A stretch of 64,000 nucleotides of DNA from Verrucomicrobia bacterium 12-59-8 (GTDB taxonomy: Bacteria > Verrucomicrobiota > Verrucomicrobiae > Verrucomicrobiales > Verrucomicrobiaceae): the NCBI GenBank assembly GCA_002279765.1, contig NCCR01000003.1:51264-115263 (forward strand). Direction: 5' to 3'. This document shows positions 3,390 to 57,305 of the stretch, one piece after another; positions within the stretch are counted from its first letter, which is position 1, and each line of letters starts with the position of its first letter. The position numbers and the translations under genes are program-made. The notes beneath the pieces were generated by a model. That model saw nothing but the letters and a program-made list of their open reading frames with translations, did no database searches and had not been told where the DNA came from.

Positions 3390-3473
3390 ACGCCTGATGT
3401 CCCTGCGGGTTCGATGAACTTATGAAGCCAAATGCCAGACAAAAAGTGAACAAAGCCGTTGTGACAGGCGTTT
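3388..3473. repeat. Inverted repeat downstream of the rhomboid remnant
   Basis: The arms aaacgcctg (3388-3396) and caggcgttt (3465-3473) are perfect complements separated by 68 bases, and the second arm is followed by tttc. The loop is long for a simple terminator; it could be a weak transcription end or chance. Confidence 0.3.
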
Positions 3474-29010: not shown

Positions 29011-30489
29011 CTACGGTTCCGGCAGCGGAGCGCTTTTATCAATCGGCTTGTCTTCCCAGATCGCCTCTCCTGTGGAGGCTTCATAGGTCAGGATACGGCT
29101 CTTGCTGCCGGGGACGGGACCTTTGTCGATCTTTGGCAGCCATTTGGCCAACTCGGCTTTTTTGGCGGTGTAGCTCGAATCACCTGCGAGGTTGGTCCAC
29201 TCATTGGGATCTTTCACCTCGTCGTAGAGTTCTTCGCTGCCGTCGGCGTAGCGGATGTAGCGCCAGTCTTTGGTGCGGATGGTGTGGTTGCCCTGATTGT
29301 GCGTGGTGATGGCGGGCCATTCGCGTGGGGCCTTGGCGTCTTGAAACTGGGGCATGAGGCTGTGGCCTTCGATGTCGGTGCGTGCTGGCAATTTGGCGAG
29401 GGCTAGGAGGGATGGGAAGATGTCGAGGAGTTCCACGGGGCTGTCGCAAACCTGACCAGCTTTGATGCCGGGTCCGGCAAAGATGAGCGGCACACGGGTG
29501 CTGCGTTCCCAGAGGGTGTTTTTGCCCGTCATGAGTTTTTCGCCGAGATGCCAGCCGTGGTCTCCCCAAAGGACGATGATGGTGTTGTCCGCGCGGCCGG
29601 TCGCTTCGAGTTCGCTCATGAGGCGGCCCACCTGGCTGTCCATGAAGCTGACGCAGGCAAGGTAGGCGCGAACGAGGGGTCGCCATTCGTTGAATTTGCG
29701 CAGGGTGCTGAGGCGTGGCTCGGGGAGTTTCCAGTGGAGAAAGTCGGCGAATTTGGGGAGGTCATTGCGATCATCTTCTTTGACCGGGGGCATCTGAAGA
29801 GTGGCGTCGGGATAGAGATCAAACCACTTCTGAGAGGCAAAGCATGGCACGTGCGGCAGACGGAAGCCAGCGGCGATGAAGAAGGGTTTGTCCGCAGGCG
29901 CACGCTTCAGGGCATCCATGGCGGAGTCGGCGATTTTCCAGTCGGCGTTGTCCTGGTCCTTCTCGGGGAAGACGCCCCAGTCCATGGCGGGATGGCGGTC
30001 CGGGCCGGGGAGATTGGCGATGGGGGTTTTGGGTTTCGGCATGGGGCCACGATTGCCCCATTCAGTGAACTCTGTTTTCTGATCGCCGCCACGCATGGAG
30101 CCGTCGTGGTAGATTTTGCCGCTGTTGAAGGTGAAGTAACCGGCCTGCGTGAAGGTCTGCGGGAGCGTCACGTGATGCTTCGTCTGCTCCACTTCGCGGA
30201 TGCCGGGGGCGAGGCCGTAGATGCCGGTGCTGGAGGGACGGAGGCCGGTGAGGAGCGAACTGCGCGAGGGATTGCACAAGGGGGCTTGGCAGTGGGCGCT
30301 GGCGAAGAGGGTGCCGCGCTTGGCCAGGGCATCGATGGACGGCGTTTTTACCTGCGGGTGGCCGCCCATGCAGCCGATCCAGTCGTTTTGATCATCGATG
30401 GCGATGAAGAGGACGTTGGGGCGCGAGTCGGCGGCGTGTACGACGGAAAGGGTGAGCAGGAATGCGGTGCAGAGACGGAACAACTTCAT
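29011..30489 (-). CDS. Secreted sulfatase 1 (iduronate-2-sulfatase-like)
   Basis: A 492-residue arylsulfatase-type enzyme with a signal peptide (MKLFRLCTAFLLTLSVVHAA). Metal site: AIDDQND. The formylglycine signature is CNPSR with C72, followed by SSLLTGLRP. GDHGWHLGEK carries the second Asp-His metal ligands, and the C-terminal subdomain is intact. The overall pattern (GKIYHDGS, HVPCFASQKWFDLYP) is that of the iduronate-2-sulfatase group. It needs formylglycine-generating enzyme, not seen in this window. The ATG at 30489 starts the signal peptide. Three bases separate its stop from the histidine kinase start codon downstream on the same strand. Confidence 0.92.
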   Translation of the reverse strand: MKLFRLCTAFLLTLSVVHAADSRPNVLFIAIDDQNDWIGCMGGHPQVKTPSIDALAKRGTLFASAHCQAPLCNPSRSSLLTGLRPSSTGIYGLAPGIREVEQTKHHVTLPQTFTQAGYFTFNSGKIYHDGSMRGGDQKTEFTEWGNRGPMPKPKTPIANLPGPDRHPAMDWGVFPEKDQDNADWKIADSAMDALKRAPADKPFFIAAGFRLPHVPCFASQKWFDLYPDATLQMPPVKEDDRNDLPKFADFLHWKLPEPRLSTLRKFNEWRPLVRAYLACVSFMDSQVGRLMSELEATGRADNTIIVLWGDHGWHLGEKLMTGKNTLWERSTRVPLIFAGPGIKAGQVCDSPVELLDIFPSLLALAKLPARTDIEGHSLMPQFQDAKAPREWPAITTHNQGNHTIRTKDWRYIRYADGSEELYDEVKDPNEWTNLAGDSSYTAKKAELAKWLPKIDKGPVPGSKSRILTYEASTGEAIWEDKPIDKSAPLPEP

Positions 30490-30530
30490 GGTCGTCTTCA
30501 AACGAAGCTCAACCGATGAAAATAGCAGCA

Positions 30531-32300
30531 TTAAGAAGCCACGTTTGGCACGAGGTGTTCGGCGGCTTTGGCGGCTTCGGCGCGGAGTTCGGGATTGAGA
30601 TTTTGCTGCTCGAATTCGCGGCACCAGCCTTTGATTTCAAGCTCGTTGAAGATCTTGCCGATGACGCGGCGGAGGAGGCCTTTGAGGTTGGGGAGTTCGA
30701 CTTCCTGGAGGGAGCGGATGGCGGCTTCCTTGTAGCTTTCGAGGAGGGTCATGGCCTTCTCATGGGCACCGCTGTCGAGGGCCCAGTCGCGGATGGTGGC
30801 GTTGTCGGGCTTGGTTTTGGCGACGCCGTTCCAGAGGGCTTCCATCTGGTCTTTGACTTCGCCTTTGCCTTTCTCACGCAGGAGGGAGAGGACGATGCTG
30901 GGGCGCATGTTCCATTCGTTGCCTGCGGCAGAGTCTTCGCCAAGATCGTCGAGGTCATCGCGGATCTGGTAGGCGATGCCGAGGTTTTCGCTGTAGGTGT
31001 GCAGCACGTCTGCGCATTCATCGAGCTGGCCGGCGAGGGCGGCGCCGACTTTGAGGGCGACTTCAAAAGCGGGGGCGGTTTTACTGCGGAAAATTTCGAG
31101 CACCTGGGTGCTGCTGAGAGCGACGGGATGACGCGTCCAGAGGAGTTCTGCGCCCTGACCGATGCAGAGCTCACGCTGGCCTTCAGCGGCGACGAGGATG
31201 GCTGCGCTGCGGATGTGCGCGGCGGCATCGTTGTCGGCGAGGAGGCGGTAGCCTTCACCGATGAGAAGGTCACCGATGTTCAGGGCCACGGGGATGCCGT
31301 GCTCGGTGTGCAGGGTGGTTTCACCGTAGCGTTCGGCGTCGCCGTCTTCGATGTCGTCGTGAACGAGCGAGGCTTTGTGGAAGATTTCGACGGCGATGGC
31401 GGCTTTTTTAACGGTGTCGGAGATCGGGCCTTCGGGATCTTCGCGCAGGGCTTGATAGGCGGCGACGGTGAGGAAGGGACGCCAGCGTTTGCCGGCACGC
31501 GCGAGCCATTCGCGTGCGATGTCGTCGCTATGGCCACGCGAGGGGCCCATGAGCGCGTTGAGAGAGTCCAAGGTGAACCAGGTCTTCACCTCGTCGTGAA
31601 GGGCGTTCAGATTGAGGCGGCGGGTTTTGTCGTCGCTGGTGAGGTGGATGTAATCCCAGACCCAGTCGATATCGACCAGGGTGTCGATGCAGTCGTCCTG
31701 CAGCAAGGGCACGGCGACGGCGGGAATGGCGGCGGCTTCGATGTAGGGGAAGGTGCGCTCCAGCACCGCGAGGCAGGAAATGCCCACGATGGCTTCGATC
31801 TTGCCGGTCTGGATGAGCGACATGACGATGGCGCTGCCTTCGGCGACAAGCACGGCATAGCCGAGCTTTTCAGCTTCGTTTTGGAAATCCTGGATCGAGC
31901 AGAGGCCGCACTGCTTGCAGAGAAGGCCGAACTCATCAAAGGGGGCCGGGCATTTGCTTTCGACACGGAGGCACTTTGGCTTCAGCAGGAGACGCTTTTC
32001 AAAGGGCACGGTGGCGAGGGATTCACGCCAGGTTTCATTGGCGAGAAGGACGCCGACGTAGTCACGATGGATCTTGTCGATGGCGTGGATCGTGACGATT
32101 TTATCCGTGTGCTCCTGCAGATCTGCCAACGGCACCGGGGGAACCAGTTTCTGCTCTTCGGCATAGGCACGAACCCAGCCCAGGATCTGATCACGCTCCG
32201 GCTTGGTCTGCGGGATGTTTTTCTTTGGCTGGCGGATACGGCGGTTCAGACCGGGAATGGGAGGCGGAAGGGCGGCAGAACGGACGACGGCAGCGGACAT
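30531..32300 (-). CDS. DUF116 domain fused to a polyprenyl diphosphate synthase
   Basis: A 589-residue two-domain protein. Residues about 100-220 look like DUF116: clustered cysteines C110, C117, C128, C131, C134 and C176 with the pattern LLCKQCGLC, then VLVAEGSAIVM and EAIVGISCLAVLER. Residues about 255-585 are an isoprenyl diphosphate synthase: KRWRPFL, the first Asp-rich motif HDDIED (DDIED 315-319) and the second RDDLDDLGED (448-452). It should condense isopentenyl diphosphate with an allylic primer to make a C15-C20 or longer chain for quinones, carotenoids or lipid carriers. The cysteine cluster may bind Zn or an Fe-S cluster; the role of the fusion is unknown. Confidence 0.82.
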   Translation of the reverse strand: MSAAVVRSAALPPPIPGLNRRIRQPKKNIPQTKPERDQILGWVRAYAEEQKLVPPVPLADLQEHTDKIVTIHAIDKIHRDYVGVLLANETWRESLATVPFEKRLLLKPKCLRVESKCPAPFDEFGLLCKQCGLCSIQDFQNEAEKLGYAVLVAEGSAIVMSLIQTGKIEAIVGISCLAVLERTFPYIEAAAIPAVAVPLLQDDCIDTLVDIDWVWDYIHLTSDDKTRRLNLNALHDEVKTWFTLDSLNALMGPSRGHSDDIAREWLARAGKRWRPFLTVAAYQALREDPEGPISDTVKKAAIAVEIFHKASLVHDDIEDGDAERYGETTLHTEHGIPVALNIGDLLIGEGYRLLADNDAAAHIRSAAILVAAEGQRELCIGQGAELLWTRHPVALSSTQVLEIFRSKTAPAFEVALKVGAALAGQLDECADVLHTYSENLGIAYQIRDDLDDLGEDSAAGNEWNMRPSIVLSLLREKGKGEVKDQMEALWNGVAKTKPDNATIRDWALDSGAHEKAMTLLESYKEAAIRSLQEVELPNLKGLLRRVIGKIFNELEIKGWCREFEQQNLNPELRAEAAKAAEHLVPNVAS

Positions 32301-34405: not shown

Positions 34406-35047
34406 TCAATTGTGGGCAGCAAGAGTTTGGAAAAGCACCGCTTTCCCCTGCTCTGATCCGGCACCTAGGCCGGCTTCAGTGGCGATCATGTTGCGCAGCC
34501 TGTTGCGCGCGCGATGGACCGCCACGCGCAGGGCGGGCGTGTAGTCCGGCACCACTTCCGCGTACTCGGTGCCAAACAGTGAGGGCTCGATTCGCTGCCA
34601 CTGCAAGTCGCCCACGCTGGAACGCAGCCTGTTCACCCCGCGCTCGATCACAGACCTGATCCAGGCATGGTCGTGCTCGGCTTCCGGGGAGCGGGGTCCG
34701 GGCAGTTCGCGACCTTGTTCGAGCAAGGTGTCGATGGACACCGTGAGGCTGGCATCGCCACGGCGCATGGCGTTTTTGTGACGCCATTTATTGAGGACGA
34801 TCCAGTTCAATGTGCGCAGCAGCCATGCGCGCTGCCACTCCAGAGGCTTGGCGCAGAGAGGCTCCAACATACCGATGCGAAAGATGCGCAGAAACAGTTC
34901 CTGCACAGCATCCCAGGCCTCATGCTCGTCGCAGCCGCGCTGGCAGGCGAACCTCACCAAGCAGAGCTGATGGCTCTGATAGAGAAGTTCACATGCCTGA
35001 TCCAGCTTTCGGCATGAATCGGCTGCTTCAACGTGCGGTAAGGTCAT
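34406..35047 (-). CDS. ECF-type RNA polymerase sigma factor
   Basis: A protein of about 213 residues. The region-2-like part has CDEHEAWDAVQELFLRIFRI and WLLRTLNWIVLNKWR, the usual core-binding and -10 recognition helices. Region 4 near the end has EYAEVVPDYTPALRVAVHRAR, the -35 recognition helix-turn-helix. It is more divergent than typical RpoE proteins and lacks an adjacent anti-sigma gene. Start chosen at 35047; an in-frame ATG at 35074 would add nine residues. It begins 48 bases after the stop of the giant phosphatase gene on the same strand, so it may be co-transcribed with it. Confidence 0.75.
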   Translation of the reverse strand: MTLPHVEAADSCRKLDQACELLYQSHQLCLVRFACQRGCDEHEAWDAVQELFLRIFRIGMLEPLCAKPLEWQRAWLLRTLNWIVLNKWRHKNAMRRGDASLTVSIDTLLEQGRELPGPRSPEAEHDHAWIRSVIERGVNRLRSSVGDLQWQRIEPSLFGTEYAEVVPDYTPALRVAVHRARNRLRNMIATEAGLGAGSEQGKAVLFQTLAAHN

Positions 35048-35095
35048 GAGGGACTGGAGATGCTGGATTCCCACAACCGAGCAGGGGCCGAGGGA

Positions 35096-38000
35096 TCAAG
35101 GCGCGGTGTTCACCTGGATTCGGTAGAACTTCCGGTTGTTCGGGCAGATGGTGATGCGCCAGACAGTGAAGGTGGTGTCGTTGGTTATGCCACGATCACG
35201 GGCGTCGCCATAGCTGACGAGCGCGCCGGTCGCATCGATCATCTTCACGTCGGAGGACTGGAAGTCGTTGTCGTTGCCGATGAAGAGGAAGTAGTCTTCG
35301 GGCGAAGGCGTGGAGAGATCCGGCACCAGCGACATGCCTTCGAGCTTCTCGTTGACGGTGAACTGGTTCGGGCTGGCGGTGTTGGTGTTGAACCCGAACT
35401 TGGCCAGATCGGTGCTGGAGAGCATGTTGATGACCACGGTGCTGGTCGCAGGTGTGATCCCGCCGAGCAGGGCGGCCGCCGGGCTGATCTGATTTCCTTC
35501 GGCGTCATACATGCCGAGGATGTTGGTTGCCGTGGAGAAGTCCACCAGATCGACGGTCTTTGCCACGATAGGATCGGTGGTGCCTTTGCCAAGGCCATTG
35601 CCGTCACGCGGCAGCATGAGGAACTGGCTGTTGCTGAGGGCGACGATTTCCGACTGGGCCGCCGTGGTGTCGAGACCGGAGCCGTTGCCGTTGAGGTCAT
35701 AGCGCGGAAGCTGCACGGCATATTCGCCGATGAGCACCGGGTTTTCCAGATTCGCGCCAACGATGTCAAAGACGAAGAGACGCGTGTTGTAGCGGCCCTG
35801 GGTTCCAGCGCCGGTGTCCTGCACGAGGGCGCTTTGCATGAGGGCGAAGAGGCGGGTGTTGTCCGGGGAGACGGACATGCCTTCGAGGCCCTGGTTGTTG
35901 CGGCGGCCGTTGGTGGGAGCATTGACAGAGTCGAAGTTCAGAGTGCCCACCGGCTTATGAGGCTGCGCCGCAGCGGGAAGCTGCACGATGCGGGTGATCT
36001 GCTTGGAGCTGTTGAAGCGGCAGAGGTAGGCGCCGTATTCTTCTGAGACAAAACCGGAGCCATCCGGGAACACATGGAGGGCCTCGGCATCAAAGCTGAC
36101 GAGATTCTCCGTGGTGCCGGAGGCGAGGTTGAAGGCTGGCACGGTGCCGACGACCTGGCCGAGGATGGTGCTGACGCCGGTCGGATTGAGGCCGGTGGTG
36201 TGCTTGGTGGTGGCACCGTCGAGGTAGGTGAACTTCGTCGTGCTGCTGTAAGTCGGGACGATCTGGTTCTGCGCCACAGAACCCGCGCCGTAGTAGGGCG
36301 TGAAGGTGAAGGGCAGCTCGTGAATGCGGGCGGCGTAGTTGGAGAAGATTGTGCCGCTGTTGTAGCCGCGGTCAGGGAGCACATTGAAGGTGCCGCTGAA
36401 CTGGCCGGTGCCGGAGTTGTAGGACCAGCCGGTGATGGACAGGCCGGAGGAGGCACCCAGGGTTTCGCCAAAGCTGTCCACGGCCTCGCCGGTCAGACGA
36501 CCGGTTCCCACCATGCCATGATTGGTGATGGTCAGACTGTTGATGCTGCCGCGCTCGACGGCGGTGGTGAAGGGGGTGAGGTAGGTGAAGGGTCCGGTAG
36601 CCGTGGGAGTCGGATTGCAGAAGATGCGATAGCGGACGACAGTCTCGCCGTTGCTCTGCGCCTCGTTGATCACTTCATAGTCCAGGCCCGGCACGGCGGC
36701 GACCCAGGTGGTCAGGTCCGTGGAGCTGTTGAGGTAACCGGGGAAGGTGGTGGAGGAAAGGTAGGTGAAACGGAACTCAAGGTCTGCTCCGTTCATCACC
36801 ACCTGCGGCAAGTTGCTGCGGTTGCCCGCACTGTTAGGATTAAGGTTGAAGAAGTACTCCAGGCTGTCGGGGATGCCATCGTTGTCCGTATCTCCGTTGA
36901 TGCCTGCAGAGGTGTAGCCATTGGTCGCTAGCCATGTTGCGAAAGTGGCTGGGCCGTCATTGACCGCGTCGCTGCGGAAAGCGAGCTGCTGGATGCGCGT
37001 GTCGAGTGCCACAGCGGTGTCGGCCACGTTGTAGGCGGTGGCAAGGCTGGGGTGGCGGGCGACGAGGAAATCCTGAAAGGCTTTCTGCTCACCGAGCACG
37101 TCGGCGCTCGTCACTCCAGCGGAAGTAAACCCGGCGGCCGCCGTGAAATCCGTAGCCGGATCGGCAGGCGCTGAGAGTGTACCATTGGTCAGCAGGTAAC
37201 GGAAATTGGAAGCATTGGCCTTGATGGGGTAGCCGTCTCCACCATTGGTGGTGAAGTTAAGGCAGACGCACTTGATTGTGGTCGGCGCGCTAGGAAGGAC
37301 GGCACCGTTTGCCACAACTCGCGCGACGATTTGATCAGCATCATTGATCAGCACCACTGAGCGAACCTTCTGCCCGGCTGGCAGCGAGGAATCATAGGAG
37401 AAGCGGATATTCCCAACCTGCGGGTAACCGCCGTTGCCCGCCGCAAGCCCGGCGGCGTAGTTGAGGATGTTAAGGAGCCCTTGCGGCGTTGTGTCGAACA
37501 CCATCATCTGATTATTGAAGCGCAGGGCGTTCTCGACATCGAGTTGGGAAATCGCCTTGGCCGGCTTCACCCCAGAGGAAGCGAACGGCGGCAGCTTGAC
37601 ACCATTGGCATCTACCGAGCCGACTGAGGCGCGAAGACCACCACCGTTCTTCAGCGAGAAGACAGCCGAGTTGTCGCCCAGACCAAGAGCAGCCCGCGCC
37701 TTCCACGCATTGGCGTCGGCAGTGATATCGCCGAGGTTGACTTCCTGCGCGCGACCGAAGACGCGGTCGCCCTCAAGATACACATTCGTATAGCCGAAGA
37801 TAGTGCCGTCCTTGCTACTGATGATATTGTTGATGGCGGTGGTGATCGCCTTGACCTTCGCACCGATCGTGCTGCCCATCACGATGGAGTCGGCGCTGGC
37901 AGTGGTGTTGTAAGCAGACTGGAGCGTCGTTTCGGTGGAGGCGTAGGCACCATTGGTGGTGCTGTTCAGGTTGCCGAGCAGCAACTCGCCATTGGCGTCG

Positions 38001-41000
38001 AAGTCCGCGACCAATCGTCCGAGATAGCTGTATTCGGTGTCCGTGGTGACGATAAGCACCGGCTTGCCATCGGCACCGGTCGTTTGGATCGGGTAGGTGT
38101 CCGAACTGATGAACGTCGCATCATGGCCGTTGAAGGAGGCTGCGGTGTCATTGGCGTCGCCGAGACGCTCATGGCCGCCGCCTGCGACGATGACATCGAT
38201 TCCTGAGACTTGAAGGGCGAGCGCCTTGTCACGATCAAGCGTGTCGAGCTGGTCAACCATGACGATCTTGTTCACACCGGCAGAGGTAAGGGCATTGACG
38301 GCACCTTGGATATAGGCCGCCACCTCGGCTATCTTGCCAGCCTCGGTCGCCGCACCTGAGGTATTCGGCACGGTACCGTTGGGGGAAGACTTGGTAAGCA
38401 GATCATAGGTAGTGGCACCGACGAAGCCTATCTTCTCACCGTTGATAGTCTTGATCGCGTAAGGGGCGATCTTGGCCTTGATTGCGGTCGTTTCCTGTCC
38501 GCGGAAGCTGTTTGTTCCGGTCCCACCAAGGGTGGAATCGGCCAAGCCCCTCAACGAGGAATCCGCGCTGAAATTCAGGTTTGCGGTGATGAAGGGGAAC
38601 TGGGCTCCCTCCCAAGCAGTCGCTCCCGATCCCGAGGGAGTAATTGCTGCTTGGAGCACAGGGGAACCGAGGTCAAACTCATGGTTGCCCAAGGCGGAGG
38701 CTGTGGTGCCAAAGGCGTTCATGATGGCAATATCCGGGCGACCCAGCGCTGTGGTGCCGATGCCCGCAACCGAGTTAAGGGAGGGATCCGCCCCGCCGAT
38801 GAGCCAGGGACCGGGGATGAAGCTGTCGCCCTCGGCCAGCACGACGGTGTTCGCGTAGTCGCCGTCGAACTTGTCGATCATCGCACCGAGGATCGGGGCA
38901 GTTTGCACGCCGAGAAGGCCGCTCTCACCGTAGTAATGGAGAATTTGGAGGGTGAACGCCGCCGGGACAGGATTGACCGTTGCGGTGAAGGTGGATGTCT
39001 GCACTCCGCCCTGGGAATCCGTATAGCTGTAGGTGATGATGTGCGCACCAACGCGGGCCAGAGTGGGATCAAACGTGCCTCCGCTGACACCCACTCCAGA
39101 GAAGGTCCCGCCCGATGGGTAGGCCCCGGTAGCAGTGGTCAAATCGACGGGCGCGTCGGTGCTGGCATAGGTCAAGCCTGCGGTGGCTGCAGCGTTGAAG
39201 GTTGGCTTTACTGCCATCACGAACTCGCTGACAATGGCAGGAGTGCGGGCCGTGACGCCAGCAGGATCAGCGTCAAGCTGGGCCTTGCTGTAAGGAGCGA
39301 TGCCCCAGGTCTTCACATTCAGCTCCTGCGTGGTGCCGTCGATGGTGAACTCCGTCCAGCCGTAGCTGTTGGTGGCGGTGTAGAGACCATTGAGCAGGTG
39401 GCAGGTTGGCAGCGGGTTATTGGTCAGGCTGACAGGGTTGTAACCGAGAGGGGTAAGGCTTGGGTTGATGATGTTCTGGAATACCAAGCCTTCTTTCTGA
39501 ACCGCAGTGAGAGACTGGTAGTAGAGATCGGTGCCAGGAGCGGCCAAACCTGCGGCCATGGCAAGATCGACAATGGTCGGACCGAAGGGCTTGTCATAAC
39601 CGACAGGGCCGGTGATGATCTCGATCGAGTTCGTCTGGATCTGGGGTTGGCCGGGACCGACCTGATAGGACAGGCGGTTGATCACGGTGCCGTGGAAGTC
39701 CGCAGTGATGAAGACCACGTTGGTGATCTTGTTGTCATCGATGAACTTCAGGAGTTCTGTACGCTCGGCGGCATAACCTTCGTAGCGGTCTTCTGCACCA
39801 AGGACGCCGAAGTTTTGGACTGGCTCAGGGACACAGATGAATTTCCAGAGGATGCCGGCGGACTGGGCGGCGAGCAAGTCGGCCTTGAACTGCGTCTTCT
39901 GGGCGGCACCCAGCAAGGTGCGGCCGGGGGTGAAGGAACTCACGAGGAAGTTGGTGACCTGAGTGGAGTTGGTGATGTCGCTCACGGGTGTCAGCGGAGC
40001 ACTGCGGAAGCTGCGGGTGTCGAGCACGAAAGTCGCCGCTGTCTTGCCCTGCACGCTGTAGCGGTAGAGGTTCAGCTTGTTCGCGGTGATCGGATCGCCG
40101 GTGGCTCCGTAGTTGGTGTCAACGATGGGGTGATACTCGCGGAAAGCCTGTGTTCCGTTGAGGAAGGTCTCAGTTTCGTTGATGTAAGTTCCAGTGTCGC
40201 TACTGAAGCGGGCATCCGTGGTGCGGAGTTCACCGCCGGAGAAGTCGTTCGTGACTTCATGGTCGTCGATCACAGCGAAGATGGCGGTCGAGGCACGAAG
40301 ATCAGCGAGGGTGTTCAACCCGTAGCGGCTGGAATACACTTCGTTGAACTTGGCGCGGTATTCGGCCAGCGTCCGGGCCTGGGCCGCTGGCACGGCAGGA
40401 GAGGAAACGTCGCCATAGATCGTGTCACCAAACTGGAGGAAGAAGTCGAGGTTCTTGCCGGCGGCATTCTTCACCGAAGGATACGGAGCAAGTTCACCGC
40501 GTTCATCACCGGAGATGCCGAAGTGAAGAGCAACCGTTGAGCTGGATGCAGGGGCGGTCTTGAAGCGACCTGTGGCGGTCGCAGTGGCTGCGTCGGTCAC
40601 GCGATAGAAATAGGATGTGCCAGCAGTGAGGCCGCTGACAGAGACCTTCACCGGCTGCATGACGTCGGCTACCGTGCCGGTCGTGGAACTCACACCCGTC
40701 GCGAAGGTTGAATCGGTCGAATATTCAAAGGTCACCGTGCCAGGCGCGTAGCTGTGGGTCCAAAGGGTTGCGCTGGCGCTGGTCACGTCTCCCGCTGCAA
40801 CGGTCGGAGCGATGTTGGTGATTGTCCCTGGGGATCCGATCTCTTGTGAATCGCCGGAGGCTGTGAGGGCGCCGTTAACGCCGACGGCGCTCAAGGTCGA
40901 GATGGCAGGGATCGGAAGTGTTGCGCTGCCGAGTCCGGCCTTGTTGTCAAAGGTGGCGTAGGGGCCCGTCGGAGATGTCGCGAAGCTGACGCCGGTGATG

Positions 41001-44000
41001 CGGTTGCCTGCTGCGTCAAAAATATTGACCGCATCTCCCGAGGAACTCAAACCGATGCCGGAGCCACCGTAGTTGCCGATCTGGAGATTGCCGAGAGGGT
41101 TCGAGCCGAACCAGAGGGTCTTGAAGGCGGTCACATTGCCAGCCGCCGTTTGCGCTCCGCTGGTTTCGATGAAGATCACGGACTCGCCGGGGGCGATGGT
41201 CGTGACGCCATTCAAGGCCAGCGCGCTGGCGAAGGCGTTGGAACTGTCGTCCACCTTCCAACCGGTGAGATCGGCGGGAACGGTGCCGATGTTGGTCAGC
41301 TCAAACCAATCAGCCGTGAGGCCGAGGCCATTGGTGCTCGACCAAGGGGCGACTTCCGTGATGATGAGCCTACTGATGCAGAGACCTGGCGAGCCAATTT
41401 CATTGGCATCGCTGACGGCAGCGAAGGCATTATTGGTGCCGACGGCGCTAAAAGTCGAAATGGTGGGAAAGGGCACCGTCGTGCCGCCCAGGCCAGCCTT
41501 GTTGTCAAAGGTGGCGAATGGGGCCACCGTGGGAGAAGCGCCGAAGGCCACACCGGTCATGATGTTTCCAGATGCATTGAAGATGACCACCTCGTCAGCA
41601 GTGCCGCTGAGACCGATTCCGGAGCCTGAGTAGCTGCCGATCTGCAGGCGGGCGGGCGGGTTGGCACCGTACCAAGTGCTGCGGAAGGTCGCGGCCTTGG
41701 CGGCAAGGTCACCGGCGGTTGCGGTTTCAATGAAGATCACGGACTCTCCCGGCGCAATGCTCGTGATGCCATTGAGCGCGATGGCCGTCGCGAAGGCATG
41801 GGAGTTGTCGTCCACTTTCCAACCGGCGATGTTTACTGGCGTGGAGCCGGTGTTGGTGAGTTCGAACCAGTCCGAGCCAACGGGGCTGTTCGCGGCAGTG
41901 CTCGACCAAGGAGACACTTCCGTGATGACGATGGTGCTCGGGGGGAGTGCGGCGGTGATCGTCAGCGTGAAGTTCGTGGTGGCATCCGGGGTGGCGCCCA
42001 CAGTGGTGTCATCAACGGTGACGGTCACGGCGTAGCTTGATTTGGTGGCGGCATTGAGCGTGGTGCCGGACTTCAGGTAGAGGGAGCTGCCCGTGATCTG
42101 GAAGAAGCTGGCATCCGTCCCCGTGAGCCCCAAAGTGTTCGTTCCCTGACCGTCATCGGTGACGGTGATGTCCGCCACACGGACGTTCGAAGCCGTGCTG
42201 GTGTCATCGGGGAGTGAGATTACGGTGTTACCGAGAGCGACGGCGGTCGGCGGCAGGTTCACATCATTGTCGGTGATCGTGACCGTAGCAGTGCCACTGG
42301 TGCCGACATCATAGCTGCCGGTGTCGCCCAGGGTGATCGTCGCGGTCTCCGGCCCCTCAATGAGGGCGTCATCGACCGGAGTGATGGTGAGGTCAACGAA
42401 GCTTTGACCTGCGGCAATCGTGGCTGGAGAGGTCAGGGCGGGCGTGTAATCGCCGCTGGTCGCCTGGCCACTGCCAGTGGCGATGGTATAAACCACCTGG
42501 AGTTCGCTGGTGGTGCTGCCCGTGCGGGAAATGCGGAAGGTGCCGGGATCGCTGCCCTGCTCCGCCGCGCTGTCATCGGTGGCCGTGATAGAAACAAGGA
42601 CGGTGCTGGAAGCAGTCGCCGTCCCGGGAGAACCGATTTCATTCGTGGTGGCCGCCGCTGTGAATGCGCCATTCGTACCAAGGGCGCTCAACTGAGTGAT
42701 GGTGGCGTTGTTCAAGCCAGCCGTGTTGTCGAAAGTCAAATAGGGCCCGGGGGAAGCACTCGAAGCGCCAAAGACCACATTGGACTGCAGGTTCCCGGCA
42801 GCGTCGTAGATGTTGACCGCATCTCCGCCCGAACTGAGGCCGGGACCAGCCACGGAACCGATCTGGAGATTTGCAGGGGGGCTGGCACCGAACCAGTTGC
42901 TAAGAAAGGTGGGGATCTTGTTCACATCCTCAACGAAGATGACCGACTCTCCTGGGGCGATGCTGGTGATACCGACCAACACAACTGCGGTGCCGGCCGA
43001 GGCCGCGCTGTCATTCATTTTCCAGCCGGTGATGTCCACGGCGGTGACGCCGGTGTTGGTGAGTTCGAACCAGTCGGAAGCCACGGCGCTGTTGCCACTG
43101 CTCCAAGGGGCAACCTCCGTGATGCGGATGGCACCCGAACCGGAGGTAACCGGCGTGATGGTGAGGGCGAAATTGGTGGATGCGTCCGGAGTGGCACCGA
43201 CGGTGGTGTCGTCCACGTTGACAGTGACATTGTAGGTGGACTTGGTCGTGGCATTCAACGTCGTGCCAGCTTTCAGATACAAGCCGCTGCCAATGATCTG
43301 GAAAGCGCCAGCGTCAGCTCCAGAGACGGAGAGAGCATTGACACCCACGCCGTCCGCGTCGGTGACGAGGATGCTCGCCATCTTGACTGGTGCTGCAGTG
43401 GTGGCATTTTCAGGAAGCGACGAGGTCGCGGTGCTCAAGGCAACTGCTGTGGGTGCCGCATTGGTGACATCGGACGGGGCGAAGACCCAGAGCTGGGGAT
43501 GATCCTGGTCTCCGCCGCCATTTTCACTGACCACGTAGATGATGCCGTCTTTGTCCATCGTGATACCCTCCTGGGTCTGATTCTGAATCGTCAGAGGATT
43601 TCCGACGTCGGCAACGAGTGTCAGCGAGCTGAGGATGTTCCCGGAGCGGTCCACCTGGCGGATCATGCCGGACTCCTGGCTAAGAATCAGCAGGTTGCCC
43701 GCCTGGGGCTGGCCGCTCATGGAAGGCAGGTTGGAGAACGCAAACACGTCGGACATGTCCTCCAGGCTGGCGAGGGCCGGGTCGAAGAGATTGGTGGAGT
43801 TAAGCGTGGACGATGAACCGTTCGAGGCCGTCCCAGCGGCGAAGTCGATGGTGGTCTGGAAAATGCCCTCGGGATCCATCTCCTTGACGAAGATGAAGCC
43901 GCTTGTCTGAGGGTCGTAAGTGAGACCTTCCAGGCCGATATTGCCGATGGTGGTGCCCAGTTTCACTGTTTGCGCAGCGGCGCGGGTCAGGGTTCCTCCG

Positions 44001-45490
44001 GGGACATAGGTGAACTTCACGGCCTGGCGGTCACGCTCCTCGGTGAAGACGAACTGTCCGTTGCCCATGTAGGTGATGCCCTCGGTGTCGAAAAATTCCG
44101 TGCCCTGCGCACTGCTGCCGGGAGGCAGTGTCATGGAGCTGACGAGCTGTCCCGTCTTCGTCACCTCGGTCACGGAGGTGCCGCCGTCGCCGACGATGAA
44201 AAGGGTGTCGGTGTCCCAGTTGTAGGCGACACCCGAGGCTTCTTGAGCCAGCAGGCTGTTGGTAGGAGGCGTGGTGCGGGTCGGCTCAGGGAGGTCGTAG
44301 CGCCCCACGCGGACATACTTGGAGAGATCAACGGATGAGGGGGCGGGGGCGAGCACCACACCACGGAACACATAACTGGAACTACCGGCGACCGCCAAAG
44401 TGGCGAAGGCTGTCGGAGCCGATCCGGAGTCTGTTATTGCGACGAGTTTGTTGTTGGAGGTTTCTGTCGTCGTGGCAAACAGGGTGGCCGTATTGGTGCT
44501 GCGGTCCCACTTGCCAGCCAGACCGCGAATGCCAATGATGCCGCTTCCCGCAGTGCTGGAGAGAGTATTGTCATTGGTGTTGAAGAGCAGTGAGTAAGTG
44601 TTGGTCCAGACAGATCCGTTAAAGTCATAGCGACGGAGCCCACCGCCGACAGATGTACGATCGTCCGCAAGATAGGCGCGATCCAGAACACCATTGCCAT
44701 CGGTGTCGAAGAACACGAATCCGTAGGTGCTGGAACCGGTGCCCCCGTCGATCACCAGAGTTGTCGTCTGACCGGCAGTAGTCGGAGTGCCTGCGCCAAC
44801 GGTCGAGACACCAAGAAAGGCACCGCTCGATGATGAAACATAAAGCTGATTGTTAAAGACGGCTATGTTGCGGAAGTTGGTGGCGGTGGTGCTCAACTGT
44901 GTGAAGTTGGTTCCATCAAAGTACCAAGCCCCGCCTGTGTTGGGGCTGCCGGATGAGGTGCCGCTAGCATAAAAGGTGGTGGCGCTGGTGGGGAAAATGC
45001 CACGGAAATTGTTGCCAGAGAACGGAGATGGCGGCGCTCCCGATGGACCACCCGTGGGGAAGGTCACGCGGCCGGCAACGACGCCAGCAGCGCTAAAAAA
45101 GTTAGCCGCCTTGGTGTTCAAGCTGGCCACGCTCGCAGTGCCGACTGCAGCGTTGATCCCAGGGACTGCCAGGAATGCGCCGTTGGAACCAAGGTAGCCA
45201 TTCGACGTGGACGTACCCGAATCGGTGAGAAGATTGGCAACTGTGAAATCGGTGGTGATCGTTTGCCTGGCAGTGCCATCAGGTTTGAACTCCACAATCG
45301 CAATCGGCGCGGCAGCGGAAGACAGTGCCGTGGAACCGTCCCCGATTCTTTCGACAACAACGCTACCTGATGTGAATGGCGCGGCGGTGAGGGTCACAGG
45401 AGCAACTGAGATGACCCCCAGTGCTGCGAGCAAGACAGACGCCAGAGAACGCGCCCGGTTAAAACATACTTTGGCAATGGTCGATTTCAT
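35096..45490 (-). CDS. Giant secreted multidomain protein with PhoD, 5'-nucleotidase-like and phytase-like modules
   Basis: A single open frame of 3,464 residues. Approximate order: signal peptide 1-36; unassigned beta-rich region 40-395; SdiA-regulated-like propeller 400-670 (DTEGITYMGNGQF); cadherin-like 678-790; lamin-tail domain 1 at 795-960 (ITEVAPWSS); Calx-beta 963-1077 (ATVTITDND); cadherin-like 2 1077-1183; lamin-tail 2 1184-1368; lamin-tail 3 1373-1553; PhoD module 1560-2087 with FGDTIYGD, IDDHEVTND and TADFHGTV intact; Ig-like 2087-2177; 5'-nucleotidase module 2183-2860 with GNHEFDLG but an altered first metal motif, and its C-terminal domain (NGGGLRASVG); acidic repeat DTDNDGIPD at about 2870; phytase-like propeller 2970-3464 (FDAEALHVFPDG, NNQGLEGMSVSPD). 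No C-terminal anchor is seen. It probably works outside the cell on phosphoesters. Confidence 0.85.
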   Translation of the reverse strand: MKSTIAKVCFNRARSLASVLLAALGVISVAPVTLTAAPFTSGSVVVERIGDGSTALSSAAAPIAIVEFKPDGTARQTITTDFTVANLLTDSGTSTSNGYLGSNGAFLAVPGINAAVGTASVASLNTKAANFFSAAGVVAGRVTFPTGGPSGAPPSPFSGNNFRGIFPTSATTFYASGTSSGSPNTGGAWYFDGTNFTQLSTTATNFRNIAVFNNQLYVSSSSGAFLGVSTVGAGTPTTAGQTTTLVIDGGTGSSTYGFVFFDTDGNGVLDRAYLADDRTSVGGGLRRYDFNGSVWTNTYSLLFNTNDNTLSSTAGSGIIGIRGLAGKWDRSTNTATLFATTTETSNNKLVAITDSGSAPTAFATLAVAGSSSYVFRGVVLAPAPSSVDLSKYVRVGRYDLPEPTRTTPPTNSLLAQEASGVAYNWDTDTLFIVGDGGTSVTEVTKTGQLVSSMTLPPGSSAQGTEFFDTEGITYMGNGQFVFTEERDRQAVKFTYVPGGTLTRAAAQTVKLGTTIGNIGLEGLTYDPQTSGFIFVKEMDPEGIFQTTIDFAAGTASNGSSSTLNSTNLFDPALASLEDMSDVFAFSNLPSMSGQPQAGNLLILSQESGMIRQVDRSGNILSSLTLVADVGNPLTIQNQTQEGITMDKDGIIYVVSENGGGDQDHPQLWVFAPSDVTNAAPTAVALSTATSSLPENATTAAPVKMASILVTDADGVGVNALSVSGADAGAFQIIGSGLYLKAGTTLNATTKSTYNVTVNVDDTTVGATPDASTNFALTITPVTSGSGAIRITEVAPWSSGNSAVASDWFELTNTGVTAVDITGWKMNDSAASAGTAVVLVGITSIAPGESVIFVEDVNKIPTFLSNWFGASPPANLQIGSVAGPGLSSGGDAVNIYDAAGNLQSNVVFGASSASPGPYLTFDNTAGLNNATITQLSALGTNGAFTAAATTNEIGSPGTATASSTVLVSITATDDSAAEQGSDPGTFRISRTGSTTSELQVVYTIATGSGQATSGDYTPALTSPATIAAGQSFVDLTITPVDDALIEGPETATITLGDTGSYDVGTSGTATVTITDNDVNLPPTAVALGNTVISLPDDTSTASNVRVADITVTDDGQGTNTLGLTGTDASFFQITGSSLYLKSGTTLNAATKSSYAVTVTVDDTTVGATPDATTNFTLTITAALPPSTIVITEVSPWSSTAANSPVGSDWFELTNTGSTPVNIAGWKVDDNSHAFATAIALNGITSIAPGESVIFIETATAGDLAAKAATFRSTWYGANPPARLQIGSYSGSGIGLSGTADEVVIFNASGNIMTGVAFGASPTVAPFATFDNKAGLGGTTVPFPTISTFSAVGTNNAFAAVSDANEIGSPGLCISRLIITEVAPWSSTNGLGLTADWFELTNIGTVPADLTGWKVDDSSNAFASALALNGVTTIAPGESVIFIETSGAQTAAGNVTAFKTLWFGSNPLGNLQIGNYGGSGIGLSSSGDAVNIFDAAGNRITGVSFATSPTGPYATFDNKAGLGSATLPIPAISTLSAVGVNGALTASGDSQEIGSPGTITNIAPTVAAGDVTSASATLWTHSYAPGTVTFEYSTDSTFATGVSSTTGTVADVMQPVKVSVSGLTAGTSYFYRVTDAATATATGRFKTAPASSSTVALHFGISGDERGELAPYPSVKNAAGKNLDFFLQFGDTIYGDVSSPAVPAAQARTLAEYRAKFNEVYSSRYGLNTLADLRASTAIFAVIDDHEVTNDFSGGELRTTDARFSSDTGTYINETETFLNGTQAFREYHPIVDTNYGATGDPITANKLNLYRYSVQGKTAATFVLDTRSFRSAPLTPVSDITNSTQVTNFLVSSFTPGRTLLGAAQKTQFKADLLAAQSAGILWKFICVPEPVQNFGVLGAEDRYEGYAAERTELLKFIDDNKITNVVFITADFHGTVINRLSYQVGPGQPQIQTNSIEIITGPVGYDKPFGPTIVDLAMAAGLAAPGTDLYYQSLTAVQKEGLVFQNIINPSLTPLGYNPVSLTNNPLPTCHLLNGLYTATNSYGWTEFTIDGTTQELNVKTWGIAPYSKAQLDADPAGVTARTPAIVSEFVMAVKPTFNAAATAGLTYASTDAPVDLTTATGAYPSGGTFSGVGVSGGTFDPTLARVGAHIITYSYTDSQGGVQTSTFTATVNPVPAAFTLQILHYYGESGLLGVQTAPILGAMIDKFDGDYANTVVLAEGDSFIPGPWLIGGADPSLNSVAGIGTTALGRPDIAIMNAFGTTASALGNHEFDLGSPVLQAAITPSGSGATAWEGAQFPFITANLNFSADSSLRGLADSTLGGTGTNSFRGQETTAIKAKIAPYAIKTINGEKIGFVGATTYDLLTKSSPNGTVPNTSGAATEAGKIAEVAAYIQGAVNALTSAGVNKIVMVDQLDTLDRDKALALQVSGIDVIVAGGGHERLGDANDTAASFNGHDATFISSDTYPIQTTGADGKPVLIVTTDTEYSYLGRLVADFDANGELLLGNLNSTTNGAYASTETTLQSAYNTTASADSIVMGSTIGAKVKAITTAINNIISSKDGTIFGYTNVYLEGDRVFGRAQEVNLGDITADANAWKARAALGLGDNSAVFSLKNGGGLRASVGSVDANGVKLPPFASSGVKPAKAISQLDVENALRFNNQMMVFDTTPQGLLNILNYAAGLAAGNGGYPQVGNIRFSYDSSLPAGQKVRSVVLINDADQIVARVVANGAVLPSAPTTIKCVCLNFTTNGGDGYPIKANASNFRYLLTNGTLSAPADPATDFTAAAGFTSAGVTSADVLGEQKAFQDFLVARHPSLATAYNVADTAVALDTRIQQLAFRSDAVNDGPATFATWLATNGYTSAGINGDTDNDGIPDSLEYFFNLNPNSAGNRSNLPQVVMNGADLEFRFTYLSSTTFPGYLNSSTDLTTWVAAVPGLDYEVINEAQSNGETVVRYRIFCNPTPTATGPFTYLTPFTTAVERGSINSLTITNHGMVGTGRLTGEAVDSFGETLGASSGLSITGWSYNSGTGQFSGTFNVLPDRGYNSGTIFSNYAARIHELPFTFTPYYGAGSVAQNQIVPTYSSTTKFTYLDGATTKHTTGLNPTGVSTILGQVVGTVPAFNLASGTTENLVSFDAEALHVFPDGSGFVSEEYGAYLCRFNSSKQITRIVQLPAAAQPHKPVGTLNFDSVNAPTNGRRNNQGLEGMSVSPDNTRLFALMQSALVQDTGAGTQGRYNTRLFVFDIVGANLENPVLIGEYAVQLPRYDLNGNGSGLDTTAAQSEIVALSNSQFLMLPRDGNGLGKGTTDPIVAKTVDLVDFSTATNILGMYDAEGNQISPAAALLGGITPATSTVVINMLSSTDLAKFGFNTNTASPNQFTVNEKLEGMSLVPDLSTPSPEDYFLFIGNDNDFQSSDVKMIDATGALVSYGDARDRGITNDTTFTVWRITICPNNRKFYRIQVNTAP

Positions 45491-45777: not shown

Positions 45778-48297
45778 TCAGCGACGCTCTTTAAAGAGCG
45801 TCATCAGCACCTCGCCACGGGTCTTGCCTGAAGGCGGAGAATCTGATTTTTCCGCTGCGGCAACTGCTGCGGCTTTTTTTCGCGGATCGTCAAACTTTTG
45901 CGCCCATACGGCTGCCATCGCTGTTTTTAGAGGCTCGTCGAGCTGGGCGTTGTATTCGGAAAAAAAACCCTGCGTGGCAAAGTACTCGGCGGCGGGGATG
46001 CGTGAATCGCTGCCATCGGCATTGAGATCATTGAAGAAGCTGATCAGCTGCCGGTGCTCCACAAGCGTGCGCACGAGCACGTCGGCATCCAGCTTGCCGG
46101 GAGTGGTGCGATGTTTCTTCGACAACGCTGCGGCCCAGCCTGCGGCTTCGCCGGTTTGCATCCACACCGGCTCCAGACGGATCGCACCCCAAGCGATGTG
46201 GGTGGAGGAAAGACAGACGGGCACGAGCAAGTTGTCCACGCCTTGCGGCAGCAGGGCGCGATAAGGGATCTGCATGGGGCGTGATTCCTCGGTGAGGATG
46301 AGTTTGCCATCGTATCGAAAGCCGGGGCGTGAATCGAGGGTGCAGGCATGGCTGTCCATGTACCAGTCCGTCACCGCAATGCTGTCTGGGTTAACTGGAG
46401 TGCGCGCATACTCGCCGGCCAGCATGCCGTCATTCTCCGTGAGGACATAACGCCCCACGATGCGGCGGGCCTCACGCACATACATTTCATACGGGATGTG
46501 GCCATTGTCGGGGAACTCATCCTTCGCCAGTCCCCATTCACGGAATGACTTCCACTTCGACTTCATCGTTTCGTCGTTCTGCAAAAACCAGATTAGGCCG
46601 AGGCCGAAGTTTTTGTGCCGCTCAATGATCTTCTCGCGCTCCGCCCACGAAGTCTCGGGATAGGCAATGTTCTCCCCAGGAAGGATCGGTGAGTTCATGT
46701 GCGACTTCAAATTTGGCCCCGCATTCGTGGCGATGCTCTTGCGTTCGAAATGAACATACTCCTCGCGATTGTATCCCGGCGGCGGCGCAGTGAGCATGAG
46801 GCGGTTGTCGGGATCCTGCGTGACGCAGAAGCGGTAGTTGTAAGCCTGTGAGTTGCCGTCCGCCGTGAACGGGCTGGTCGGATCGACACTGCCCTGACGA
46901 GAACTGTATGCGCGAATGTTCAAGCCTTCTGCCTCCACGCTTTGCGGAGCGCCGTGGTCGATGTTCACAAACACTTTGCCTGCATGCGGCTCATTGTATT
47001 CATCACGTGCCTCGCGCCCGACGCGATATGGCACCTTGGCCAGGGCGAAGAGATCGCCCTCATAGGTCGCGTCGGCAAACATGGCAGCCTTGACGGTGAT
47101 GTCCTGAGTGGTGCCATACGCCCGCAGTGTGGCGCTTTTCAGGAGGGTGCCCTCGCGCTCGACTGCGACCGGATAATGCTCCAGCAGCAGCGTGAGGTTT
47201 TTCTCGCCCGCGAGGAGCCGGTGACACTCGCGCTCCATTACATGGGACTCCACCCAACCGATGGGATAATGCTCGTGGGTGTAGCGCATGATTTGATGCG
47301 CCTTCGAATCCCGCCCGTACCGTGCGATGGCGTCTTTCTCGATGTTTCCGAGCAGTTCAGTGAACAACGCGGCACGTGGTCCGCCATACAATGCGTCCCA
47401 TTGCATGAGGCCGTTTGCCAGCATGCCGCCGATGTGCCGGTTGTGCTGCACCAAGAGCACCGTGCAGCCTTCACGTGCGGCACGCACTGCGCAGGCCACG
47501 CCGCCCGCGGTGCCGCCGACCACGACGAGATCGTAGCTCCTGCCATTCACGTCATCGGCTTTGGCGTCCTTCTTTAATTGCACTGGCTCGGAAGAAGGCG
47601 GCGCGATGTTGCGGCCTTCCAAGGTCTGCTTGGCCAGAGGTGAAAGCGCTGCGGCTGCGGCCATTTGCGCCCGCTTTTCATTCACTGCATCAGCGACAGG
47701 TGCGGCGGACTCGAATCTTTGTGCGACAAAACCGGAGGCGCGCACGCCGTGACGTTCATCATCAGCAATCGCAACTGGCACGAACTGCACAGCATCCACC
47801 ACCACGTAGCCGTTTGCATCCGCATTCGACAGGGCCAGTGAGGCGTCTTTGCCGGGCTCAAAGCGGAATCTTCCAAGGGCACGTGGCACACCGTTTTCCA
47901 GACATTCCTGGCGCTGGTTTATTGCCACGGCTTTTGTTCCATCCGCGCTGACAATGCTCACCGGCACGTTTGTGGCGCGGTTGTCCGTGGCGGCATAAAT
48001 CAGGCGCACTTCGTATTCGCCAGCCTGTGTGATCTTCGGCACGAAGCGGGCGCTTTTGGCCCCCTGCTGCCCATGGCCGTCATGATGATAGCCCCGACCG
48101 ACATAGCTCGCTTGCTTGGTGCTCTCCACCCATGATCCAGTGTATTGCGCAGCGGAGTCATCGAGTACGATGCCTGCGATTTTGGTTTCGGCGACTGGAG
48201 AGGTCTGCAACTGCTGCTTCTCAACCAACGGTGGCTCAGAGGCGTGAAGAAACGAGACCGCAAGCAGTGCGTGCGAAACAAAGGTTGGAAAGCGCAT
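45778..48297 (-). CDS. Secreted FAD-dependent oxidoreductase with N-terminal golvesin-like domain
   Basis: An 839-residue exported protein. After a signal peptide, residues about 40-175 resemble the golvesin/xanthan-lyase-type beta-sandwich (AGIVLDDSAAQYTGSW, GEYEVRLIYA, VVVDAVQFVPV), likely a carbohydrate-binding part. The FAD-dependent oxidoreductase part starts at about residue 253 with DLVVVGGTAGGVACAVRAA (dinucleotide-binding loop), then NRHIGGMLANGLMQWDALYGG and FADATYEGDLFALA. It belongs to the FAD_oxidored group abundant near sulfatases and glycosidases in Verrucomicrobiota and Planctomycetota. The substrate is unknown, probably a sugar or glycan. A paralogous core is encoded at 50,733-52,433. 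Confidence 0.87.
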   Translation of the reverse strand: MRFPTFVSHALLAVSFLHASEPPLVEKQQLQTSPVAETKIAGIVLDDSAAQYTGSWVESTKQASYVGRGYHHDGHGQQGAKSARFVPKITQAGEYEVRLIYAATDNRATNVPVSIVSADGTKAVAINQRQECLENGVPRALGRFRFEPGKDASLALSNADANGYVVVDAVQFVPVAIADDERHGVRASGFVAQRFESAAPVADAVNEKRAQMAAAAALSPLAKQTLEGRNIAPPSSEPVQLKKDAKADDVNGRSYDLVVVGGTAGGVACAVRAAREGCTVLLVQHNRHIGGMLANGLMQWDALYGGPRAALFTELLGNIEKDAIARYGRDSKAHQIMRYTHEHYPIGWVESHVMERECHRLLAGEKNLTLLLEHYPVAVEREGTLLKSATLRAYGTTQDITVKAAMFADATYEGDLFALAKVPYRVGREARDEYNEPHAGKVFVNIDHGAPQSVEAEGLNIRAYSSRQGSVDPTSPFTADGNSQAYNYRFCVTQDPDNRLMLTAPPPGYNREEYVHFERKSIATNAGPNLKSHMNSPILPGENIAYPETSWAEREKIIERHKNFGLGLIWFLQNDETMKSKWKSFREWGLAKDEFPDNGHIPYEMYVREARRIVGRYVLTENDGMLAGEYARTPVNPDSIAVTDWYMDSHACTLDSRPGFRYDGKLILTEESRPMQIPYRALLPQGVDNLLVPVCLSSTHIAWGAIRLEPVWMQTGEAAGWAAALSKKHRTTPGKLDADVLVRTLVEHRQLISFFNDLNADGSDSRIPAAEYFATQGFFSEYNAQLDEPLKTAMAAVWAQKFDDPRKKAAAVAAAEKSDSPPSGKTRGEVLMTLFKERR

Positions 48298-52433: not shown

Positions 52434-52477
52434 GGGTTGTATGAAAATAGACGACGCAAAATCTCTGGCCTTGCTGG

Positions 52478-57136: not shown

Positions 57137-57305
57137 AAGAGGGGAAATCACGCCCTGTAACGAAGGTCAGCGCATACTCTCACCACAAATTCCGCTTTTG
57201 TGGATTCGAGACTTCAGTTCCAGTCGTTCGTGCGGAACGGAGAAGCTGCCAGCTTTGCCAGTAAAGCTATACTTCACGGCCTTGGGCTCTATGATGATGA
57301 CGTGT

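Follow-up and report, generated by a model that had tools for sequence, protein, structure and literature searches.

A giant multi-module protein of a Verrucomicrobia bacterium with hydrolase-type modules and a derived 5'-nucleotidase site

The gene and its modules

A 64,000-nucleotide stretch of the genome of Verrucomicrobia bacterium 12-59-8 (contig NCCR01000003.1, positions 51,264 to 115,263; hereafter the window) carries one stop-free frame of 3,464 residues at 35096..45490, with its ATG at 45490 and its stop at 35096-35098. The original prediction, made from the letters alone, described this frame as a secreted protein fusing three phosphoester-hydrolase-type modules. Its coordinates and uninterrupted length are right, on the minus strand, which it had left unstated, and every motif it quoted is present: FGDTIYGD at residue 1687, IDDHEVTND at 1741, TADFHGTV at 1929 and GNHEFDLG at 2268. 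A full-length search returned 273 relatives at an expectation value (E) of up to 0.001, and all counts out of 120 below refer to the best 120 of these, with the window's own entry, P0001, counted in. Among them, P0002 (3,454 residues, 91% identical) is the sole other protein with the exact module string of the window. Since a relative this close has the same module order, the frame is not a product of chance. The modules are as follows.

35096..45490, minus strand: whole gene, 3,464 residues, from translation of the frame
45380..45490, minus strand: residues 1-37, signal-peptide-like N-terminus by eye (basic start, hydrophobic core, TAA/P end)
44276..45418, minus strand: residues 25-405, N-terminal region, propeller-like by eye, no Pfam match; matched in 7 of 120 relatives
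43523..44251, minus strand: residues 414-656, SdiA-regulated (YjiK-like) domain (PF06977, E 1.7e-44; PDB 3qqz, yjiK, E 9.4e-12)
42773..43144, minus strand: residues 783-906, lamin tail domain 1 (LTD, PF00932, E 1.4e-48 over three stretches)
42263..42544, minus strand: residues 983-1076, Calx-beta-like stretch, below cut-off (PF03160, E 5.6e-4, 20.3 bits against 27)
41954..42187, minus strand: residues 1102-1179, cadherin-like stretch, below cut-off (PF00028, E 0.001, 19.8 bits against 28.8)
41291..41920, minus strand: residues about 1191-1400, lamin tail domain 2 with flanks (LTD stretch, boundaries set by the analyst)
40826..41290, minus strand: residues about 1401-1555, lamin tail domain 3 with flanks (LTD stretch, boundaries set by the analyst)
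40556..40801, minus strand: residues 1564-1645, PhoD N-terminal domain (PhoD_N, PF16655, E 8.1e-14, 52.4 bits against 30)
39596..40483, minus strand: residues 1670-1965, PhoD catalytic domain, profile match (PF09423, E 7.5e-42, 144.1 bits against 27; PDB 9uya, 2yeq)
37967..38956, minus strand: residues 2179-2508, N-terminal (metallophosphoesterase) half of the 5'-nucleotidase module, with the site that we call type B (PDB 2z1a alignment, motif tables, model m4b9289305fb0)
37226..37756, minus strand: residues 2579-2755, C-terminal (substrate-binding) half of the 5'-nucleotidase module, with NGGGLR and GGDGYP (5_nucleotid_C, PF02872, E 3.1e-12)
36611..37090, minus strand: residues 2801-2960, linker by eye, with DTDNDGIPD; module matched in 104 of 120 relatives
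35204..36592, minus strand: residues 2967-3429, Phytase-like beta-propeller (PF13449, E 2.2e-41, 143.1 bits against 27.6; model me0cefffd7c79)

The profile search thus detected the PhoD, 5'-nucleotidase C-terminal and Phytase-like families above the Pfam cut-offs, together with the SdiA-regulated domain and the three lamin tails; the Calx-beta and cadherin-like repeats that had also been named fell below them. Metallophos (PF00149) found no match in the N-terminal half of the 5'-nucleotidase module in a scan that reported matches up to E 1, likely because the ligand motifs are altered. Nucleotidase, SoxB and PhoD models of NCBIfam all match below cut-off, so no NCBIfam model spans the whole chain. 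The N-terminus, judged by eye, appears to be of an export type, and the DTDNDGIPD of the linker resembles what we take to be a calcium-binding repeat.

The 5'-nucleotidase module and its altered site

The type B site is the part of this protein worth pursuing. Like UshA and CD73 (2z1a, 4h2f), the module has the full two-domain 5'-nucleotidase fold in its predicted model (m4b9289305fb0). It also has their GD, their GNHEFD dyad, and the C-terminal NGGG-R and GGDGY, which we take to be substrate-pocket motifs. Unlike them, it carries gap-GE, DQ and GGGH in place of NDxH, SH and GHxH. This comparison, in which Paenibacillus and P. ferrooxidans served as canonical controls, uses ligand roles that we assume for the UshA and CD73 positions. 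The site residues in the window are E2189, E2220, D2222, N2269, H2270, D2273, D2413, Q2414 and H2440. Because NDxH, SH and GHxH are missing, 5'-nucleotidase activity cannot be assumed.

The altered motifs change together. We aligned 208 copies of the module from 240 proteins, of which 14 are gapped at one or more motifs and 194 are fully readable. The complete type B pattern (GES/GD/GNHE/DQ/GG[GS]H) occurs in 108 copies, 100 of them exact, seven with GGSH and one with IDQI. A second pattern, DxE (D-x-E/GD/GNH[ED]/[SAT]H/GS[NHD]), occurs in 85, and one further DxE-like copy, P0236, is degenerate. None of the 194 mixes the two. Conservation was read from 109 type B copies picked by DQL and GGGHE, letters that are invariant by construction. 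Among positions independent of that choice, Y2187 and E2189 are invariant in 100 of 100 copies, E2220 and D2222 in 102 of 102, and N2269, H2270 and D2273 in 104 of 104; D2445, D2448, H2456, D2484 and E2486 are kept in all 109.

In a tree of 144 non-redundant rows and 330 columns (a quick method, with Shimodaira-Hasegawa-like approximate likelihood ratio test, SH-aLRT, support only), all 67 type B rows and the IDQI variant, P0125, form one clade with support 100 on a branch of 0.37, nested within the DxE rows. Its sister group, joined by a branch with support 97, consists of ten DxE rows, several named Methylobacterium. All ten have DGEGS, SH and GSHT, and the last histidine may thus predate type B. 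Relatives outside type B also depart from the canonical motifs: those from cyanobacteria, Deinococcus and Skermanella are without GHSH and have DxE or DxD at the first motif. The whole branch is therefore non-canonical, with type B the most changed form among those compared. Non-canonical modules of this kind are found in proteins of cyanobacteria, alphaproteobacteria and Deinococcus named 'bifunctional metallophosphatase/5'-nucleotidase', 'ExeM/NucH family extracellular endonuclease' or 'choice-of-anchor I family protein' (e.g. WP_012305544.1, WP_203099293.1), some of which fuse the module to other exported-type modules. Their modules are 32-37% identical to the window module, and unlike it, those that were aligned keep D-x-E or D-x-D and SH or AH.

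Type B motifs occur at loci of genomes G001, G016, G089 and G151, and a D-x-E first motif in G036, G085, G090 and G118; the G069 locus and a second G151 locus do not cover the first motif. P0125 has IDQID for VDQLD. At loci L007-L010, Q replaces the histidine of SH; L007-L009 are D-x-E with TQLQ and GSGT, and L010 covers the last two motifs only. An AHLQ that also occurs in L007-L010 belongs to an unrelated upstream stretch and not to the aligned position. These variants suggest that the branch holds more than two site types.

Given these changes, one could envision that the type B branch has lost catalysis and now serves as a nucleotide-binding module or scaffold, leaving the chemistry to PhoD and perhaps the propeller. 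The aspartate of NDxH is deleted, the histidine of SH is glutamine, the first histidine of GHxH is glycine, Metallophos finds no match, and the nucleotide-pocket motifs are retained, all as a pseudoenzyme would have it. Yet every type B copy that covers the GNHEFD dyad and the new acidic residues flanking it has them unchanged. The motifs of the site were also altered jointly, within a single clade, and none of the readable copies is mixed or reverted, which is unlike decay; the appearance of decay is shown by P0236. We consider loss of catalysis a real contender, if a somewhat unlikely one. A change made set-wise, apparently once, and then fixed favours a new working site over decay, although it does not prove activity.

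PhoD, the propeller and the SdiA domain

By sequence, the closest solved structures to the PhoD module are 9uya (E 1.1e-20) and Bacillus subtilis PhoD, 2yeq (E 1.2e-15). Like 2yeq, the module consists of PhoD_N and a catalytic domain, with ligand-type residues at every metal-ligand position compared. These are D1662, which sits just ahead of the PF09423 match, D1689, Y1692, D1742, D1743, N1748, D1749, D1931 and H1933, where Y1692 and H1933 stand for Tyr and His positions that we presume. Equivalents of the entire Fe/Ca ligand set (C180 or Asp, D207, Tyr, D265, D266, N271, N272 or Asp, D436 and His) are present, and all 44 aligned PhoD copies share D1689, Y1692, D1742, H1744 and E1745. Unlike 2yeq, the window has Asp at the Cys180 position, and its module is embedded in a chain of 3,464 residues. 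In one report, changes at C180, D265, N271, N272 or D436 abolish PhoD activity and changes at D207 or D266 drastically reduce it; a second subfamily has Asp for Cys180, and some members have Asp for N272 (PMC4223295). By its residues, the window PhoD is a credible member of this Asp subfamily.

The Phytase-like module was modelled as a beta-propeller with a predicted local distance difference test score (pLDDT) of 91.7. Its best Foldseek E-value is 6.1e-6, and its highest-ranking structural matches vary in kind, with phage P68 at 14.6, NHL domains at about 14, human apyrase at 13.6, PON1 at 13.2 and B. subtilis phytase at 11.8. On this basis the propeller should not be called a phytase. In the structure comparisons, a phytase-specific fold could not be told apart from that of other propellers. 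PhoX is not among the best 50 matches listed in either propeller comparison, which excludes nothing. The propeller bears acidic loops with D3134, E3136, E3203, E3384 and NDNDF (3406-3410). Across aligned copies, D3134, E3136, E3151, N3199 and E3203 are present in 69 of 69, and the NDND run in 67 of 67.

Descriptions of other phosphatases offer a possible role for this module. PMC9846622 places a Nodularia gene for an 'atypical alkaline phosphatase (esterase-like activity of phytase family protein)' in the phosphorus (P) stimulon of the species, and PMC3610870, a Nodularia genome paper, points to an enzyme of Synechococcus PCC 7942 for the atypical alkaline phosphatase. The label of the Nodularia protein (PhoAaty, nsp7010), 'esterase-like activity of phytase', is the Pfam description of the C-terminal propeller of the window. 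Psip1, as portrayed in PMC11098088, is a propeller phosphatase that requires Fe and Ca and shares residues with PhoX. Together, the Nodularia and Psip1 reports make a Ca-dependent phosphatase role plausible for the propeller, with the likeness to PhoX, Psip1 and the PCC 7942 enzyme drawn from their descriptions. The SdiA-regulated domain resembles YjiK (PF06977, 3qqz) over residues 414-656.

Relatives, proposed function and neighbourhood

The original prediction knew of no described system with this combination of modules. A unique architecture was rejected, as the three-module combination recurs among relatives. With profiles built from the window's modules, SdiA is matched in 107 of the best 120, each 5'-nucleotidase half in 84, the Phytase-like module in 67 and PhoD in 42. 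PhoD, 5'-nucleotidase and Phytase-like modules stand together in 21, and in 11 of these SdiA is present as well. Comparison of module order found the window's order (PhoD, 5'-nucleotidase, Phytase-like) in ten of the 21, whereas in the other 11 the Phytase-like module lies ahead of PhoD. Precomputed Pfam assignments place PhoD, 5_nucleotid_C and PF13449 together in 34 of 120, with SdiA and LTD also in 25; we prefer the stricter 21, since the SdiA domain is probably being counted under PF13449 too. Named relatives come from Prosthecobacter, Luteolibacter, Haloferula, Brevifollis, Reyranella, Methylomagnum, Cyanobium and Synechocystis. Proteins with this combination form a recurring modular type and go under generic database names. 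In the limited open-access literature searched, no publication on this architecture or on the GES/DQ/GGGH site was found, which does not prove that none exists, and passages of PMC12260270, PMC11495043, PMC4548154 and PMC10454023 do not settle what the architecture does.

Extracellular DNA had been named as a substrate, and the lamin tails could in principle bind DNA that the protein digests to phosphate. Some bacterial DNases carry lamin tails, which have been suggested to bind DNA in those enzymes (PMC4486849). In addition, PF03372 and the 5'-nucleotidase C-terminal domain occur together in 9 of 120 relatives, and proteins of PCC 7002 and Skermanella fuse the two. Unlike the window, however, the latter proteins have a nuclease-type domain and no PhoD match. 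In the window's chain, the Pfam scan at E up to 1 found no nuclease family, including PF03372 of the ExeM/NucH type, and DNA degradation is thus unsupported; PhoD is a phosphodiesterase, but nothing here shows DNase activity for it. We judge a DNA degrader very improbable.

Alternatively, the protein could mainly be an adhesive or structural component of the surface or matrix, with the propeller, lamin-tail, cadherin-like and Calx-beta-like parts attaching to polymers or cells and the hydrolase modules being secondary. The three hydrolase-type modules leave about half of the chain or more to other parts, and modules are freely reshuffled, with 36 of 120 relatives lacking the 5'-nucleotidase and 78 lacking PhoD. 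Against this, the PhoD ligand-type residues are all present and the hydrolase-type modules recur in many arrangements, and we find such a role improbable.

On balance, we think it probable, though far from assured, that the gene encodes a giant, exported and possibly calcium-dependent scavenger of organophosphate that follows a widespread modular plan and has a derived 5'-nucleotidase site. The SdiA-type domain, three lamin tails and immunoglobulin (Ig)/cadherin-like linkers would carry three hydrolase-type modules in one chain, presumably under phosphate control. Outside the cell, a PhoD-type Fe/Ca phospho-di/monoesterase would cleave phosphodiesters and monoesters. The 5'-nucleotidase-fold module would bind nucleotides in its conserved C-terminal pocket and remove phosphate. 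The 'esterase-like activity of phytase' propeller would handle further monoesters, and may work like the Fe/Ca phosphatases PhoX and Psip1. In the 5'-nucleotidase site, the canonical di-metal set of His and Asp would have given way to a carboxylate-rich one (E2189, E2220, D2222, N2269, D2413, H2440) with the catalytic His-Asp pair kept, and the metal at such a site is probably another one, perhaps calcium or magnesium. Of all this, the frame, its modules and residues, the two modelled folds and the type B clade are direct results; export, catalysis, metals, substrates and phosphate control are inferred.

Several observations weigh against this proposal. Of the seven canonical 5'-nucleotidase ligand positions, four differ: one is deleted, and the other three have Gln, Gly or Glu where His is expected, with NDxH, SH and GHxH gone and GD and GNHEFD remaining. 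The module is patchy in distribution, matched at E up to 1e-30 in 9 of 197 genomes drawn from the order of G001. From the PhoD ligand set, only D1689, Y1692 and D1742 pass the conservation list (95% identity, 70% filled) in the 44 copies, a set that includes divergent ones such as the extra copies of P0023. The propeller fold is common to many unrelated proteins, and residue 3150 (codon 36041-36043, minus strand) is Glu in the window and Asp in 66 of 69 copies, P0002 among those that keep Asp. The suggested phytate substrate, which draws on a Pfam name and this generic fold, was accordingly over-read. For relatives of this architecture no activity data came to light, and no recognisable pho or pst gene is present in the 30 neighbouring open reading frames (ORFs) scanned, chosen from 64 of at least 200 residues. 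The idea of a scavenging machine holds in part: one polypeptide does carry three phosphoester-hydrolase-related modules and a full PhoD ligand-type set, but the canonical 5'-nucleotidase motifs are missing. As an interpretation it is partly supported: for PhoD, and for scavenging taken broadly, it is sensible at the level of families, but it makes too much of phytase, of DNA and of how new the architecture is.

A bolder version of the scavenging reading, which we find distinctly doubtful, makes type B an active enzyme of the 5'-nucleotidase superfamily whose His-rich Zn/Mn di-metal centre has turned into a carboxylate-rich, zinc-independent and probably calcium centre. Within one exported polypeptide, it would act in sequence with a PhoD using Fe/Ca and a propeller using Ca, as a zinc-free extracellular line for releasing phosphate. 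An active type B site would mean that a textbook metallophosphoesterase superfamily includes a branch whose metal centre differs. Such a centre could enable bacteria to free phosphate from nucleotides when zinc is in short supply, and proteins now labelled '5'-nucleotidase' or 'bifunctional metallophosphatase' would call for an entry of their own. An inactive site would mean that the enzyme label on many giant exoproteins misleads. Either way, the question is confined to a single 640-residue module and is directly testable.

In Crocosphaera, according to PMC12260270, a gene with the annotation phoA codes for a 5'-nucleotidase. The paper also reports induction of the 5'-nucleotidase gene when P is limiting, and an absence of periplasmic targeting sequences from sequences of this type.

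Relatives adjoin differing exporters. At L014 (1547-10805), in a genome of the sampled order, the gene for a 1,791-residue type B 5'-nucleotidase/choice-of-anchor-I protein precedes those for a ShlB/FhaC-like transporter and a DUF2341/ExbB protein, a gene order that hints at two-partner-type secretion of some family members. At L015 (3502-13764), on plasmid pAQ7 of Picosynechococcus PCC 7002, a fusion of nuclease-type and non-canonical 5'-nucleotidase modules lies near genes for a peptidase-domain ABC transporter and HlyD.

In the window, the genes upstream on the same strand encode a flavin adenine dinucleotide (FAD) oxidoreductase with a golvesin-type domain, a GDSL-like protein (below cut-off), a threonine dehydratase and a second FAD oxidoreductase, and further upstream an ORF without a match and two sulfatases. 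Downstream lie an ORF without a Pfam match, a tRNA-Gly (plus strand), a Sel1 gene, a sulfatase and a two-component pair. The two FAD_oxidored genes, one with a golvesin C-terminal-type domain, and the three sulfatases fall at 45778-48297, 50733-52481, 54180-57151 and 29011-30624 (minus strand). The ORF directly downstream (34406-35074, minus strand, 222 residues) looks by eye like a sigma-70-type factor, and the two-component pair at 26666-29007 has a sigma-54 activator domain. At 6593-9889 (plus strand), a serine/threonine kinase is fused to WD40-type repeats.
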